Positions 25,761 through 43,150 of a DNA stretch of 51,589 bases are shown piece by piece. Each line of letters begins with the position of its first letter. The first letter of the stretch is position 1. Origin of the DNA: a virus; IMG/VR virus record IMGVR_UViG_3300033141_002903, positions 1 to 51,589 of that record; one strand, written 5' to 3'. The position numbers were made by a program, and so were the translations under genes. The notes below the pieces were generated by a model. The model searched no databases. It saw only the letters and a list, made by a program, of their open reading frames with translations, and had not been told where the DNA came from.

Positions 25761-27788
25761 TCATTTCATCTTCTCCTTTGCTTCTTCAATGGTTAAACCA
25801 GCAATTTCTTTTAAATCGTGTTCTAGCATTTCTTTGATTATTTCTTTATAAGTGTATTTTGGCTCCCATCCAAGAGTATTTCTAATTTTAGTTGAGTCCC
25901 CTAGCAATGCTGGAACTTCTGCAGGTCTAAAATATTTCTCGCTTACTTCAACATATTTTTTCCAGTCAAGACCAATCATATCAAAAGCATCTTTTAAGAA
26001 TTCTCTAATAGAATGTGTTTCATTTGTGCTAACAACAAAATCATCTGGTTTATCGTGTGTAATAATCAGATACATCGCCTTAATGTAGTCTAAACTATGA
26101 CCCCAATCCCTTGTAGCATTCAAATTGCCCAAAATCAATTTATCTTGTTTTCCAGCAACTATCCTTGCTATACCTCTTGTTATTTTCCTTGTAACAAAAT
26201 TAACTGTTCTTCTTGGAGAATTATGGACATGAATATTTCCAATACCCGCAATAAACTCCCCACTTTCAGTTTCTAAATCATAAAACCACCCCTTATAATT
26301 GGACATGTCAATAGTTTTTGTTACCTCTGCAAAAGGTTTTGATAAATGAGATTTTATTCCTTTTGGGCTATTTAGGTTAATACAATATATAATTGAACCT
26401 GTTTTTCCTGTTGTTGTATAAAAAGTCTTTCTTTGGGTTGGTAATAAAATATCTGTTAAATACCACAATCCCTGTGCTAATGTTGCAGAATTAGTTTTAA
26501 AAGCCTTAAACTCATAAACACATTTATCTTTTTTTAAGCCATCACAATTATTGTAACCTCTTAAAAAGGACATTTGGGCTTCTTTATTAGCATTTAAAAT
26601 TCTCTTTGGAATTCTTTTATATCTTTCAGAAGTGTACAAATCTAATTCTTTTGTCCAATTATTTCCAGTAAAATATATTTGTTTAACAGTATTACCTTTC
26701 TTAAATCCACTTGATGTATCTTGCTCGTAAGTATGAGTTCCAACAATTTTATTCCACAATTCTAAAAATCTCTTTCTAATTTTTTCATCATTTTTTGTAA
26801 ATTTACCCATATTTCCTTTTTTATTTATATACCCATCAGCAACTAACATCCCTATTAATTCTGCTTCCTCATTAGAAACAAAATCAGAAACATTTTTAAT
26901 TATATTCAGATTAACTAATTCAAATCTATCTCCTTTAGAAATTTCTCTTGTTTTTTTTTCTTCTCCTTCCATAAATGCGACATGGTCACCAGTAGCCATA
27001 TATCCCCCGCATCTTCCAGAAATGAATTTTGGGTCTTTATTGTTCTCTAAATCATGTGGATAGCCTGAAGCATATTTAACCTTAACCCACCCTTTTTTAC
27101 CCAAAATTTCCAAATCTGATATTTCTTTGTGTTGATATTTTTTATTAGATTTATCTATAAATGTTAAAACATCTGTAAGAGGTTTAATATCAAATTTATT
27201 TCCTTCTTTTACAAAAATAGGCATAAAATCTGCCATTGTCTCATGATTAAAACAAATAGAATTACAAGCAAATATCCCATAAGCATTCCTGTAAAGTTTA
27301 ACCAGATGATACGCACCAAGTTTTGCTATTCCATAAGGGCTTACTGGTAGCATTTTAGTATCTTCTTTTTGTGGTGGGGGGCTAATTCCAAACATTTCAC
27401 TAGAACTACATTGTAAAAATCTTGTCTTAGGAGAGAAGTTTTTAATTGCTTCAAGTATTCTCAAAACACCAAGAAGATTATAATTTAAAGTAGATTCTGG
27501 AGTTTTAAAACTAATACTAACGTGGCTCATAGCAGAAGTGTTGATAAAATAATCTGGTTTATGTTTTTTTATTAATTCATTGATATTACAAGCATCAGAA
27601 AGGTCAAAATACTCCATTTTAAAGTTCTGGTTTTCATCTTCTAATGAGCAAAGCAATTCATATCTTTCAGAATTTGGACAAGCATTTCTCCTAATAAGAC
27701 CAATTACTTTTTCACCCCTATTTAGCAGAAATTCTATTAGATTACTTCCATCCATTCCTGTTGCACCAGAAATCATCCATAAACTCAT
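25761..27788 (-). CDS. gmd: GDP-mannose 4,6-dehydratase with an embedded intein (675 aa precursor)
   Basis: Extein: NAD(P)-binding GATGMDGS (residues 8-15), the catalytic SSSEMFG (128-134) and SPYGIAK (150-156; Tyr152, Lys156), then a break inside the conserved NHESPRR sequence and continuation as SPRRTVNFVTRKITRG with TRDWGHSLDYIKAMYL. This turns GDP-mannose into GDP-4-keto-6-deoxymannose. The two exteins total about 335 aa, normal for the family. The intein (residues 184-523) is listed separately. It heads the sugar cluster. Confidence 0.9.
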   Translation of the reverse strand: MSLWMISGATGMDGSNLIEFLLNRGEKVIGLIRRNACPNSERYELLCSLEDENQNFKMEYFDLSDACNINELIKKHKPDYFINTSAMSHVSISFKTPESTLNYNLLGVLRILEAIKNFSPKTRFLQCSSSEMFGISPPPQKEDTKMLPVSPYGIAKLGAYHLVKLYRNAYGIFACNSICFNHETMADFMPIFVKEGNKFDIKPLTDVLTFIDKSNKKYQHKEISDLEILGKKGWVKVKYASGYPHDLENNKDPKFISGRCGGYMATGDHVAFMEGEEKKTREISKGDRFELVNLNIIKNVSDFVSNEEAELIGMLVADGYINKKGNMGKFTKNDEKIRKRFLELWNKIVGTHTYEQDTSSGFKKGNTVKQIYFTGNNWTKELDLYTSERYKRIPKRILNANKEAQMSFLRGYNNCDGLKKDKCVYEFKAFKTNSATLAQGLWYLTDILLPTQRKTFYTTTGKTGSIIYCINLNSPKGIKSHLSKPFAEVTKTIDMSNYKGWFYDLETESGEFIAGIGNIHVHNSPRRTVNFVTRKITRGIARIVAGKQDKLILGNLNATRDWGHSLDYIKAMYLIITHDKPDDFVVSTNETHSIREFLKDAFDMIGLDWKKYVEVSEKYFRPAEVPALLGDSTKIRNTLGWEPKYTYKEIIKEMLEHDLKEIAGLTIEEAKEKMK
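26220..27239 (-). other. Intein with LAGLIDADG endonuclease in gmd, starting with Thr (340 aa)
   Basis: Inserted exactly in the conserved NHE|SPRR site. Block A reads TMADFMPIFVKEGNKFDIKP with Thr where Cys or Ser normally sits. Block B is GGYMATGDHVAF (TxxH). LAGLIDADG-type motifs are ELIGMLVADGY and FLRGYNNCDGLK. Block F/G is GWFYDLETESGEFIAGIGNI and ends in HVHN before Ser+1. The penultimate His and final Asn are present. Only the first residue is unusual. Confidence 0.85.
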
Positions 27789-28433: not shown

Positions 28434-28504
28434 TTGGTCTGCGTGGAATTGAACCACGACTAAAGGGTTATGAGCCCAGTGTGCTACCTTTACACTACAG
28501 ACCA
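28434..28504 (-). tRNA. tRNA with CAT anticodon (Met or Ile2 type)
   Basis: Acceptor stem TGGTCTG/CAGACCA (7 bp), D-arm GTGT-AAAGGTA-GCAC, anticodon loop CTCATAA, T-arm CGTGG-TTCAATT-CCACG, discriminator A and no encoded CCA: 71 nt. The anticodon stem has only three firm pairs (GGG/CCC); the two outer ones mismatch. It may be elongator tRNA-Met or a tRNA-Ile with modified C34. Viral tRNAs often supply rare decoding needs or replace cleaved host tRNAs. Confidence 0.8.
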
Positions 28505-28745: not shown

Positions 28746-29097
28746 TTAAGCATATTCTATTAACTTCCAAAAAAGATTATCCTCCTTTATTTTACATTTC
28801 TCTGGATGTTCTTTTTCATCTAACTCTTTCTGAACATCCTTTCTTGAATATAACTTTTTTGGGTATCTTATTATTTTCATTTTCATTTTCTTTCCATACT
28901 TGTTCAAAAGAAACATCTTCTCCTTTTCCTTTTCTAAAAAATGTTTCAGCTACCCGCCACAAAACTGCATCTGAAGACATTATTGGTTGTTGTTTTGCAA
29001 GACTAATATCTTTAGAACATTTTCTACACAAACATCCTTTTGAACAACCCATAATTCCTCCTGTTATTTTTTGTTGGCATAATTTACAATTTGTCAT
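28746..29097 (-). pseudogene. Zinc-knuckle protein interrupted by a one-base frameshift
   Basis: The start MTNCKLCQQKITGGIMGC is preferred to an upstream in-frame M because GGGAG lies 7 bases before it. It has CKLC and CLCRKC knuckles and FRKGKGEDVSFEQVWKENEN. The frame stops at 28816, but in the +1 frame after the A6/T6 run at 28855-28860 the reading continues with good codons as LYSRKDVQKELDEKEHPEKC and ends at 28746. One A fewer in the run would join both parts. It is therefore a homopolymer error, a real frameshift, or phase variation. Confidence 0.6.
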
Positions 29098-29145
29098 TAG
29101 TTTCTCCCAACTTTGGAGCAAAATCCAAAATTTCGTTTAATATTG

Positions 29146-29241
29146 GGATTAAGGAGAGTTTTTACAGAGTAAAAATTCGGGCAGTCGTTAGACTGCTCTT
29201 TAATCCATATTAAACTCTCCGTAGGAAAACCCGAAGGGTTT
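29146..29241. repeat. Multi-hairpin intergenic element 1
   Basis: Complementary pairs: 29146-29152/29200-29206 (7 bp) and 29153-29161/29212-29220 (9 bp), which are mutually interlaced; a hairpin GCAGTC-GTTA-GACTGC (29181-29196); and AAACCC-GAA-GGGTTT (29227-29241). It separates the zinc-knuckle gene from the gene at 29261. Confidence 0.6.
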
Positions 29242-29243
29242 AG

Positions 29244-29575
29244 TTCCGTCCCAAATCGTTTCATATTAATCGCCTATTTACTTTAATTTTGTCCATAATC
29301 TTTAGATTTTTTCCAGTTTCATAAGGTATAACAAATGATTCATCAACACCAAAATTGGAAACAGTAATTCTTAAACTAATGGGGAGATGTTTTCCTCCCA
29401 CAAAAATTTGGGTTTGTTCAACATTTATCCCAGTTATTACATTTTCTGTTTCAAATTCCAGTTTCTCATTTGTTCTATTGAAAAATCTTTTCTCTTCTTT
29501 TTGGACACTGACTTTTTTGCTCATTTTAAACCTCCTGAGTTTAGCTGAACCCCGCCCACAAGATTTGGGACGGAA
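29244..29575. repeat. 14-bp inverted repeat enclosing the gene at 29261-29524
   Basis: Arms TTCCGTCCCAAATC (29244-29257) and GATTTGGGACGGAA (29562-29575) are perfectly complementary. They flank just one small gene; the ribosome site lies inside. In the mRNA the ends would close into a stem. Confidence 0.75.
29261..29524 (-). CDS. Small beta-rich hypothetical protein (87 aa)
   Basis: SD-like AGGAGG lies at 29531-29536, seven bases upstream of the ATG. The protein has an N-terminal charged part (SKKVSVQKEEKRFFNRTNEK) and a beta-rich rest (LEFETENVITGINVEQTQIF, ISLRITVSNFGVDESFVIPY). It could be a small nucleic-acid-binding or virion protein. The gene is enclosed by the 14-bp inverted repeat. 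Confidence 0.65.
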   Translation of the reverse strand: MSKKVSVQKEEKRFFNRTNEKLEFETENVITGINVEQTQIFVGGKHLPISLRITVSNFGVDESFVIPYETGKNLKIMDKIKVNRRLI

Positions 29576-29590
29576 TTGAGTTTAATGTAT

Positions 29591-29694
29591 GCGGATAAGT
29601 TCTCCGTAAGGAAAAAATCCGCAGGATTTTTAGTTTTATGAGCGAAGCGAATAAAATTGAATTTATCCGCTATTATGTTCCCTGCATTAGCAGG
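29591..29694. repeat. Multi-hairpin intergenic element 2 (cloverleaf-like)
   Basis: Closing stem GCGGATAA/TTATCCGC (29591-29598 with 29663-29670, extendable to 10 bp with one G-U) encloses AAAAATCC-GCA-GGATTTTT (29613-29631) and TTTTAT…ATAAAA (29634-29656, with an inner GC-GAA-GC). CCTGC-ATTA-GCAGG (29681-29694) follows. It lies between two small genes. Confidence 0.65.
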
Positions 29695-29873
29695 TTGATT
29701 AATCGGCATCATCATCTTTACCTTCTATTTTTAACCAATTCTTAGCATTCTCTTTATCAAATATATCTTCAAACCCTTGATTATTCCTTATCTGATTTTT
29801 TAAATCTTGTATCTCAAATTCATTTTCTGGTTCTTTCCACATTTTCATTACCTCCTTATAGCCGATTAATCAA
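29695..29873. repeat. 13-bp inverted repeat enclosing the 47-aa gene
   Basis: Arms TTGATTAATCGGC (29695-29707) and GCCGATTAATCAA (29861-29873) are perfectly complementary and lie at the stop codon and just upstream of the ribosome site of one small gene. Confidence 0.75.
29699..29842 (-). CDS. Small acidic protein (47 aa)
   Basis: The ATG at 29842 stands 8 bases after AGGAGG (29851-29856); an ATG two codons earlier is too close to the ribosome site. The protein reads MWKEPENEFEIQDLKNQIRN, then FEDIFDKENAKNWLKIEGK and an acidic DDDAD end. The stop codon lies within the left arm of the enclosing inverted repeat. No family recognised. Confidence 0.6.
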   Translation of the reverse strand: MWKEPENEFEIQDLKNQIRNNQGFEDIFDKENAKNWLKIEGKDDDAD

Positions 29874-29875
29874 AG

Positions 29876-30003
29876 TTTTCCGTCAGGAAAATTGAACATA
29901 ATATCTGCGATTATGGAAAGTTTGTCGTTAAACAAATTTGGGGAGTTCGTTAGAACTCCTCTATAATCGCTATTAATCGCCCCGTAGGGCGTTGCGTAGC
30001 AAC
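29876..30003. repeat. Multi-hairpin intergenic element 3
   Basis: TTTTCC-GTCA-GGAAAA (29876-29891); closing stem GCGATTAT/ATAATCGC (29907-29914 with 29963-29970) around GTTTGT…ACAAAT (29920-29937) and GGAGTTC-GTTA-GAACTCC (29942-29959); then CGCCC-CGTA-GGGCG (29978-29991) and GTTGC-GTA-GCAAC (29991-30003). Loops are mostly G-N-A or G-N-N-A. Confidence 0.65.
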
Positions 30004-30006
30004 GAG

Positions 30007-30362
30007 TAAAGGAGAGTGCGGTCATTCTTCCCCCCTACATTTTTTTAAATGGGCGTAAAGTTTTGGAGCAGTTTCACAATCTCTTTCTTCATCATATAGT
30101 TTCATTAAAGTATCCCATTCTTCTGCAATTCCTTTCCAAATAGGATATTTCTTTGATAAATCAATTATTAAATCTCTGACTTTATGTTTATGATATTCTA
30201 AACAATCAAATAATAAATGAATACATCTCTGAAAGTCAGATGGGTCTCTTGGAATTGCAGGTCTTTCTTTTTCAATACCTAAGATAAATGAAACTATTGT
30301 TAAACTGCTTTCTCCATAATCAGACCATTTAATTTTTTCCATTTTACAAGCACTCTCCTTTA
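30007..30362. repeat. 13-bp inverted repeat enclosing the gene at 30022-30342
   Basis: Arms TAAAGGAGAGTGC (30007-30019) and GCACTCTCCTTTA (30350-30362) are perfectly complementary. Further out ATTAATCGC (29972-29980) pairs with GCGATTAAT (30365-30373). On the minus-strand mRNA the right arm contains the AAAGGAG ribosome site, which the stem would hide. Confidence 0.75.
30022..30342 (-). CDS. Conserved-type hypothetical protein (106 aa)
   Basis: Helical protein with SLTIVSFILGIEKERPAIPR, PSDFQRCIHLLFDCLEYH, KYPIWKGIAEEWDTLMKLY and a final CETAPKLYAHLKKC. The pattern of a DFxRC…L…P…W…W motif occurs in small proteins of tailed viruses, including gut phages, though I do not know their job. The ribosome site AAAGGAG is inside the right arm of an inverted repeat whose partner lies just past the stop, so translation may be controlled by that stem. 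Confidence 0.65.
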   Translation of the reverse strand: MEKIKWSDYGESSLTIVSFILGIEKERPAIPRDPSDFQRCIHLLFDCLEYHKHKVRDLIIDLSKKYPIWKGIAEEWDTLMKLYDEERDCETAPKLYAHLKKCRGEE

Positions 30363-30420
30363 TTGCGATTAATACCCTTTAATCGAACTTTCCACATGAA
30401 GTCTTGGTTAAGTTTATTTA

Positions 30421-41189: not shown

Positions 41190-41367
41190 GAAACTTGCAG
41201 AATTTGAACATATTTACAACCCACAACACCTTTATTGTAGATTACGTGATATGGGTATAGATAAGAAATATTCAAAGTCATTGATAGAGAGGTATGAAAA
41301 AGAGATTTATGCTCCTTTACTAAGATACATTCAAAATGAAAGGAAAAACATTACAGGAGAACATTAA
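41179..41367 (+). CDS. Small hypothetical protein (62 aa)
   Basis: MNLEKLAEFEHIYNPQHLYC, then MGIDKKYSKSLIERYEKEIY; helical. It overlaps the protease end by 11 bases and the metallophosphoesterase start by 32. Unknown. Confidence 0.5.
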   Translation: MNLEKLAEFEHIYNPQHLYCRLRDMGIDKKYSKSLIERYEKEIYAPLLRYIQNERKNITGEH

Positions 41368-43150
41368 AGAAAAATCAGATTGGCAGAGCATTCCAGTTGA
41401 TGAGAGAAAAAAATCCAACATTCTTAATCTTAAGTATGATAGTGATAAAACTACAATTGTTGTTATGGGTGATGAACATATTGGCTCACGATTTTATGAT
41501 GAAGATACCCACAAGAGGAATGTTGAATGGTGTTATGAAAATGATGTACCAATAATTTTAATGGGGGATGAATTAGAATGTATGGATATGGAAACGCAAA
41601 TTCTAACAGAAAAGGGTTGGAAATTTTTTTGGGAATTGGGGAATTTAAAAGTTGCTACATATAATATTGAAAGAGATGAAATAGAATATCAAAAACCAAT
41701 AAAAAAAGTTTATTATAAATATAAGGGGAAAATGTATCACTTTCTTAATAAAAAATTAGATATGTTTGTTACACCAAACCATAGAATTTTATGCAGGCAT
41801 CATAAAGACAAATTAGAAGTTAGGAGGGCGGATAAATTTACAATAAAATCTGCAAAAGCACGTTGTTGGAATGTTCCTTGCTCTGCATCTTGGAATAAGG
41901 GGCTTGAAGAATATGGTATTTCTGATGATGAGATAAAATTAATTGCGTGGATAATTACAGAGGGTTGGATAGAAAAAAGAGGATTAAGTTATAGGTATTA
42001 TACTTCTCAAAAAAACGGAACAAAAGAATCAGTAGAAATTAATAAAATTTTTAATAAACTTAATATAAAACCACATATAAAGTATAACAAACAAACAAAT
42101 GTTTTAACTTGGAGATTTACAGATAAAAACGGAAAATTTAAAAAATTAATCGGTAAAAAAACAAAAAGAATAACGAGAGAAATTCTTAATAAATTTAGTG
42201 AAAGGCAATTAAAAATTTTATACAAAATACTATTAAAAGGTGATGGTGGAAAAAGAGGGGAGTTTTTTACAATTAGCAAACAATTAAAAGATGATTTTTT
42301 GGAACTATGCTGTAAAATCGGTTTAGTTACTTCTGTAACAAAAACAAAAACAACAAAAGGACCAAATTCTAATGATAAATGGAAACCAAGAGATTTTTGG
42401 ATTATATATACTGGCAATGGAAAAGGAAATAAAAAAACAAAAAAAATGAAACACAAAACAATAACAGATTTGGATATTGTAGATTTTGATGGTGAAGTAT
42501 GGTGTGTTTCTGTTCCAAATAGTTTTTTAGTTGTTAAAAGAAATGATAGAGTATTCATTACAGGAAATACGGCTACAAGAGATTCTGTTGGTGCTGGTGT
42601 TTTTGAACAAGATGAAATAGTTCAGGAACAATTAGAACACGCAGAAAGGATTTATAAGCCTCTTGCTGAAAAAGGATTAATTTTAGGAAATCATATAGGC
42701 AACCATGAGGCAAGAGTATATAATCACTCTGGAGCAAATCTATCAAAAATCTTGGCAAAGTTGTTAGATATAAAGTATCTTGGTGTTGGTGCAATAACAA
42801 ACATAAAAGTTGGAAAAAATAATTATACTTTATATACTACACATGGTTCTTCTGGCTCTAGACTTCCACATACAAAAATTAAGGCTGTGTTGGATTTAGC
42901 AAATATGATTGATGTAGATATTTATGCAATGGGCCATCTTCATGCTCTTGACCACCATGTTAGAAATATGTATTATTTTGATAAAAGGAATAAAACAATA
43001 AAGGAAAAACAAAAACACTTTATTCTTACTGGAAGTTATTTAAAGCATTGGGGAAGTTATGCTCATATTAAGGGAATGGAACCAGCAAGAATAGGTAGCC
43101 CAAAAATAAAGCTGTCTGGATTGGAGAGAAGAATAAGGGTAAGTTTATAA
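41336..43150 (+). CDS. Calcineurin-like metallophosphoesterase with an intein (604 aa precursor)
   Basis: Extein: metal motifs MGDEHIGSRF (D46, H48), LMGDELE (D78), then after the intein GNHIGNHEARVY, TTHGSSGSR and MGHLHALDHH (GHxH), giving a full metallophosphoesterase site, comparable to Mre11/SbcD-like or phage calcineurin-like enzymes. Extein length is about 274 aa. The intein (residues 82-411) sits right behind the GDELE motif, in the active centre. It lies directly before terL, so a DNA-end-processing role in packaging or recombination is plausible. Confidence 0.8.
   Translation: MKGKTLQENIKEKSDWQSIPVDERKKSNILNLKYDSDKTTIVVMGDEHIGSRFYDEDTHKRNVEWCYENDVPIILMGDELECMDMETQILTEKGWKFFWELGNLKVATYNIERDEIEYQKPIKKVYYKYKGKMYHFLNKKLDMFVTPNHRILCRHHKDKLEVRRADKFTIKSAKARCWNVPCSASWNKGLEEYGISDDEIKLIAWIITEGWIEKRGLSYRYYTSQKNGTKESVEINKIFNKLNIKPHIKYNKQTNVLTWRFTDKNGKFKKLIGKKTKRITREILNKFSERQLKILYKILLKGDGGKRGEFFTISKQLKDDFLELCCKIGLVTSVTKTKTTKGPNSNDKWKPRDFWIIYTGNGKGNKKTKKMKHKTITDLDIVDFDGEVWCVSVPNSFLVVKRNDRVFITGNTATRDSVGAGVFEQDEIVQEQLEHAERIYKPLAEKGLILGNHIGNHEARVYNHSGANLSKILAKLLDIKYLGVGAITNIKVGKNNYTLYTTHGSSGSRLPHTKIKAVLDLANMIDVDIYAMGHLHALDHHVRNMYYFDKRNKTIKEKQKHFILTGSYLKHWGSYAHIKGMEPARIGSPKIKLSGLERRIRVSL
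41579..42568 (+). other. Intein with LAGLIDADG endonuclease in the phosphoesterase gene (330 aa)
   Basis: Starts with Cys (block A CMDMETQILTEKGWKFFWEL). Block B includes DMFVTPNHRILC with TxxH. LAGLIDADG-type motifs are LIAWIITEGW and LYKILLKGDGGK. Block F/G is EVWCVSVPNSFLVVKRND and ends FITGN before Thr+1. The penultimate residue is Gly, not the usual His; Asn and +1 Thr are normal. Confidence 0.85.

Follow-up and report, generated by a model that had tools for sequence, protein, structure and literature searches.

Branched palindromic elements that enclose whole genes in a tailed-virus genome, tentatively read as gene cassettes

Integrons carry promoterless genes beside attC palindromes, which fold as one DNA strand and are conserved in structure over sequence (PMC8946536); attC, one imperfect hairpin, flanks the gene on one side only and depends on an integrase. 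Rickettsia palindromic elements (RPEs) and MITEs are coding-compatible palindromes that occur in frame at gene ends (PMC10969869), and RPEs are about 150 bp long, similar to each other in sequence, and gene-less. The early promoters of phage N4 are template-strand hairpins with C-GNA-G loops that extrude at normal supercoiling (PMC4496689), but these are single, short hairpins read by the virion polymerase, neither branched nor gene-enclosing. No description of gene-enclosing branched palindromes was found in the open-access literature.

This paper describes a viral locus that resembles each of these systems in part. Like attC sites, its palindromes accompany promoterless genes and keep structure over sequence; unlike attC, they form three- and four-helix junctions whose arms enclose the gene, and no integrase gene was found in the viral records searched. 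As with RPEs and MITEs, the palindromic sequence is open in frame, here in spacers coupled to neighbouring genes, but the modules share a plan rather than a sequence, enclose whole genes, and occupy one region per genome. Moreover, the locus differs from IS200/IS605 or REP-type single-stranded DNA elements in having no Y1 transposase in cis (PF01797 was absent from the virus records searched), although a host enzyme might act in trans.

The window, i.e., the whole stretch of 51,589 bases that was analysed, is an IMG/VR virus record encoding tailed-virus terminase and capsid genes. Apparent inteins were noted in a nucleotide-sugar dehydratase-like gene (25761-27788, minus strand) and a phosphoesterase-like gene (41336-43150, plus strand), the translations being judged by eye only. 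A terminase query of IMG/VR returned three relatives: L002, a near-identical strain in which similarity begins at about 34 kb, with the palindrome locus outside its coverage; a 20.6 kb fragment; and G003, of 55,818 bases, with a terminase 76% identical to that of the window virus. Although recorded as linear, G003 is probably a complete genome, since its first 144 bases (L007 1-144) recur at the end of L009 as a direct terminal overlap. IMG/VR scans with terminase, MCP and glycosyltransferase all converged on the same few records, and the branched element is known from two genomes only, the window virus and G003. DNA similarity to the window was absent among 50,697 phage records, and a provirus search of 84,980 genomes gave no match with the terminase query and a single Bacteroidales locus (47%) with the methyltransferase query described below.

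The first-pass annotation had reported three consecutive small genes, each enclosed by its own perfect inverted repeat, and the arm pairs were recovered exactly as claimed around the following genes:

29261-29524, minus strand: gene 1, 87 aa, without a confident family match; inner arms 29244-29257/29562-29575 (14 bp, perfect).
29699-29848, minus strand: gene 2, 49 aa, with its stop codon within the inner arm; inner arms 29695-29707/29861-29873 (13 bp, perfect).
30022-30342, minus strand: gene 3, 106 aa, PHROG 1229 (E 2.6e-18), a family of which the function is not known; inner arms 30007-30019/30350-30362 (13 bp, perfect).

The annotation was right about the enclosure of the middle gene and in placing the ribosome site of the third gene inside an arm (the 3' arm of module M6, see below); the 47 aa it gave for the middle gene run from the second in-frame ATG, and the outer arms it had reserved for the third gene are present at all three. 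Phages of Salmonella, Cronobacter and Mannheimia encode proteins with about 35% identity to the gene 3 product. Genes 1 and 3 had no relatives in IMG/VR by pattern search plus tblastn. Other members of PHROG 1229 come from phages of Salmonella, Escherichia and further enterobacteria, which are distant from the window virus.

Within the window, these three arm pairs alone combine perfect arms of 13 bp or longer, a G/C count of 4 or higher and a spacing of 100-500 nt. The annotation had named a shuffled-sequence comparison as a check on chance, and such pairs proved rare: among 2000 dinucleotide shuffles of 29100-30420, 1990 contained none, 10 contained one and none contained the three observed. 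Flanking arms of at least 12 bp were present at 3 of the 203 window ORFs (ORFs of at least 45 aa), exactly the three enclosed genes. The spacers held 10 compact hairpins, versus 0.5 in shuffles (maximum 4), and folded with a z of about -14 on both strands alike, so that energies alone do not discriminate the strand. Intrinsic terminators numbered 2, with 1.1 expected.

What the annotation had seen was part of a larger structure, a branched module to which every arm pair contributes a single helix. Folding of the plus strand gives six modules between 29135 and 30374, of which neighbours touch or almost touch:

29135-29215, plus strand: M1, type A; outer helix 29135-29143/29207-29215 and 29146-29155/29197-29206; AGT...ATT hairpin 29156-29178, GG, GTTA-loop hairpin 29181-29196.
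29207-29588, plus strand: M2, type B, gene 1 forming the loop of helix 3; outer helix 29207-29217/29578-29588; hairpins 29218-29226 and 29227-29241, AG, inner arms of gene 1, TT.
29591-29670, plus strand: M3, a gene-less type B; outer helix 29591-29602/29659-29670; hairpins 29603-29612 and 29613-29631; AGT...ATT helix 29632-29639/29651-29658 with an 11-nt loop containing GCGAAGC.
29671-29903, plus strand: M4, a variant of type B, the middle helix enclosing gene 2; outer helix 29671-29680/29894-29903; hairpin 29681-29694, inner arms of gene 2, AGT...ATT hairpin 29874-29893.
29907-29970, plus strand: M5, type A; outer helix 29907-29917/29960-29970; AGT...ATT hairpin 29918-29939, GG, GTTA-loop hairpin 29942-29959.
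29971-30374, plus strand: M6, type B, with gene 3; outer helix 29971-29980/30365-30374; hairpins 29981-29989 and 29990-30004, AG, inner arms of gene 3 (the 3' arm containing its ribosome site), TT.

There is thus a four-helix junction at each gene, one four-helix junction without a gene, and two three-helix junctions. Type B modules run in the order outer helix, hairpin, hairpin, AG, a helix carrying a gene or a loop, TT, outer helix; type A modules run in the order outer helix, AGT-helix-ATT hairpin, GG, hairpin, outer helix. The outer helices of M1 and M2 are alternatives, since the strand ATATTAAAC is common to both, and the same holds in G003. The base of the AGT...ATT helix (A-T, G.T, T-A) is invariant and present in every module, M4 included. 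This helix ends in a small loop in M1, M3, M4, M5 and, in G003, R1 and R3, and carries a gene in M2, M6 and R2 of G003, which gives the appearance of empty and filled states of one helix; M4 is an exception, as gene 2 lies outside its AGT...ATT helix.

The modules have a common architecture and little common sequence. MAFFT failed to align them by sequence, and pairs were therefore counted on a hand-made alignment anchored at the junctions. The type B modules (M2, M3, M6 and R2) have 35 comparable pair positions, of which 29 vary; every one of the 29 has changed on both sides, and pairing is kept throughout. Type A modules offered 34 pair positions, with variation at 15 and on both sides at 13 of these. 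The suggestion of the annotation that the arms are kept by pairing is supported by this divergence of homologous modules that still pair perfectly, as well as by the recurrence of the design around another gene in G003.

The G003 element occupies the same region between two conserved gene blocks, with a different cargo, a C5-cytosine methyltransferase (MTase):

L009 14765-15724 (G003): MTase gene, enclosed by the element.

On the antisense strand the inner arms are TAAACTTGCCC and GGGCAAGTTTA, with AG before and TT after, and the MTase module (R2) has outer arms TATTAAACGA and TCGTTTAATA and a hairpin GGGC-GTA-GCCC, and is without the second hairpin. The type A modules on either side of it contain TTTAATATT, as does M1, which begins with GTTTAATATT and is homologous to R1 and R3 of G003. 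At 11 bp the inner arms alone are not significant in that contig, and the match lies in the combination of features. Similarity to other viral MTases extends as far as codon 277, at which the 3' arm begins, and the element encodes the last ~42 residues of the G003 enzyme. As the fold recurs in G003 around another gene, the element appears to be a kind of gene-carrying palindrome that has not been described before. Apart from G003, two DNA patterns of the type A 5' end retrieved from IMG/VR only unrelated sequence in which the fold is absent. Within the MTase gene, outside the branched modules, there is also a 14-bp perfect inverted repeat, TGTGTCGGATACTC (L009 14840-15523), for which about 0.3 would be expected by a rough estimate.

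Besides folding, the DNA between the genes is open to translation. In the three window genes the inner arms begin at most 3 nt from the stop codons, and the enclosed unit consists of a ribosome site plus an ORF (gene 1, for example, is preceded by the Shine-Dalgarno-like AGGAGGT). The spacers contain the following frames:

29870-30025, minus strand: frame a, 51 aa; its start overlaps the gene 3 stop (ATGA), and it terminates shortly ahead of the gene 2 ribosome site.
29521-29715, minus strand: frame b, 64 aa; its first 17 nt overlap the end of gene 2, and its stop overlaps the gene 1 start (ATGA).
29097-29264, minus strand: frame c, 55 aa; its start overlaps the gene 1 stop (ATGA), and its stop and the start of the following gene overlap (TAATG).
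G003, upstream of the MTase gene: frame d, 45 aa; it overlaps the upstream gene by a few bases and ends 3 nt before the MTase start.

The chance of such an open frame per shuffled spacer was 0.055, 0.027, 0.019 and 0.045 for a, b, c and d, respectively. The same DNA is thus constrained both to fold and to maintain an open frame, and this holds for the four frames as well as for the MTase tail. The spacer-frame peptides had no Pfam match. Directly downstream of the palindrome region lies a tRNA-Met (CAT; 28434-28504, minus strand).

The strand on which the helices are most favourable bears on the nature of the folding molecule. On the plus strand, all helices together contain 269 Watson-Crick, 15 G.T and no A.C pairs, a G.T count that is biased by the choice of the helices from the plus-strand fold. 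Nine of the 15 G.T pairs are the conserved AGT...ATT position, and the remaining six also all fall on one strand. Among the 17 short loops, 14 have a 5' G and a 3' A on the plus strand (C-GNA-G or C-GNNA-G, closed by C-G throughout) and none does so on the minus strand; GTAA is the only GNNA loop that is also a GNRA loop. The tetraloop d(cGNNAg) is stable in DNA. For GNA loops, extraordinarily stable DNA minihairpins are on record (Yoshizawa et al. 1997, listed in PMC7432603). All genes lie on the minus strand, and the folding plus strand is therefore their template strand. Sense folds were weaker than plus-strand folds in all six window modules and in both G003 elements. Together, the wobble pairs and loops favour the plus strand and argue for folded single-stranded DNA, an antisense RNA being less likely.

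The annotation had proposed that the mRNA ends of each gene close into a lasso, controlling translation gene by gene or shielding the message from nucleases. Helices can form in sense RNA as well, and the gene 3 ribosome site does lie inside an arm helix; this explanation is nevertheless disfavoured and rather unlikely, as every template G.T becomes an A.C mismatch in the weaker sense folds, the sense-strand loops are not of RNA type, and the coupled, overlapping frames would have ribosomes traverse the structures. A structured antisense RNA, transcribed from the plus strand through the genes and conserved for its own fold, would turn the G.T pairs into G-U and benefit from the stronger plus-strand fold, and structured RNAs typically have such branched junctions and conserved linkers. 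Such an RNA would, however, contain gene-sized loops, most loops belong to classes better known for their stability in DNA, GNA triloops or non-GNRA tetraloops, and Rfam matched only the tRNA in the window region and nothing at the G003 elements, which makes this origin unlikely.

Selfish or mutational palindromes, spread in the manner of MITEs or made by snap-back copying and enclosing genes without benefit, would account for type A modules with a common start sequence at different gene junctions in two viruses, and for elements read in frame like the Rickettsia ones (PMC10969869). Snap-back copying leaves the common junction plan, the invariant AGT...ATT base and the compensated helices unexplained, and we consider an origin of this kind quite improbable. 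The C-GNA-G loops on the template strand follow the exact N4 rule (PMC4496689), which raises the idea of supercoiling-extruded hairpins serving as entry sites for a special RNA polymerase; yet N4 hairpins are not branched around genes, the genes here are translationally coupled within one operon, and no RNA polymerase appeared among the part of the proteins scanned with Pfam, so that promoters of this type are very unlikely. Least credible is inversion of each gene between the perfect repeats that flank it, given that the genes are co-oriented and coupled and the arms gene-specific, and that the search for tyrosine recombinases (PF00589) found none.

Among the functions that the annotation had offered, mobile gene cassettes are the best supported, and we tentatively read the locus as an array of branched palindromes whose loops carry genes as cassettes, while regarding this as somewhat short of probable. 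The reading draws on the empty and filled helices, the arms near stop codons, the unit of ribosome site plus ORF, and the different cargo in G003; it fits better than the mRNA lasso because the sense strand has A.C opposite the template G.T and folds less stably. In each four-helix module one helix ends either in a tiny loop (M3) or in a loop that holds a complete translation unit (M2, M4, M6 and the MTase module). The folding molecule is most likely the plus strand as single-stranded DNA, in an extruded cruciform or a replication intermediate, with the preference for DNA over RNA suggested by the loops and wobble pairs. Its most likely function would be to mark and carry promoterless cassettes in an accessory-gene operon, in which genes may be gained and exchanged as loop-plus-arms units; as the frame between genes is open and coupled to the gene that precedes it, an inserted unit would leave expression of the operon intact. 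That the virus keeps accessory genes in the loops of branched single-stranded DNA folds and swaps gene-plus-arms units by a putative, possibly host, enzyme is a more doubtful proposition. Against cassettes count the gene of M4 outside its AGT...ATT helix, the lack of an observed exchange event, the restriction to two genomes, and the failure to find a recombinase: tyrosine integrase (PF00589) was absent from G000, G003 and G002 and detected in 14 of 14 control genomes, a host enzyme being possible, and no reverse transcriptase was present in the virus records searched.

The module plan yields clear predictions for searches of other viruses, namely an AGT...ATT helix, G..A loops and cargo in a loop. 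Exchange of genes together with their arms, if shown, would make the element categorically new. Were the genes not mobile, the locus would still show a striking double constraint, with perfect, strand-specific branched folds lying in sequence that is also translated in frame. If the cassette reading is true, the gene-enclosing branched junction would be the building block of a second route, besides integrons, for carrying genes by means of folded single-stranded DNA.
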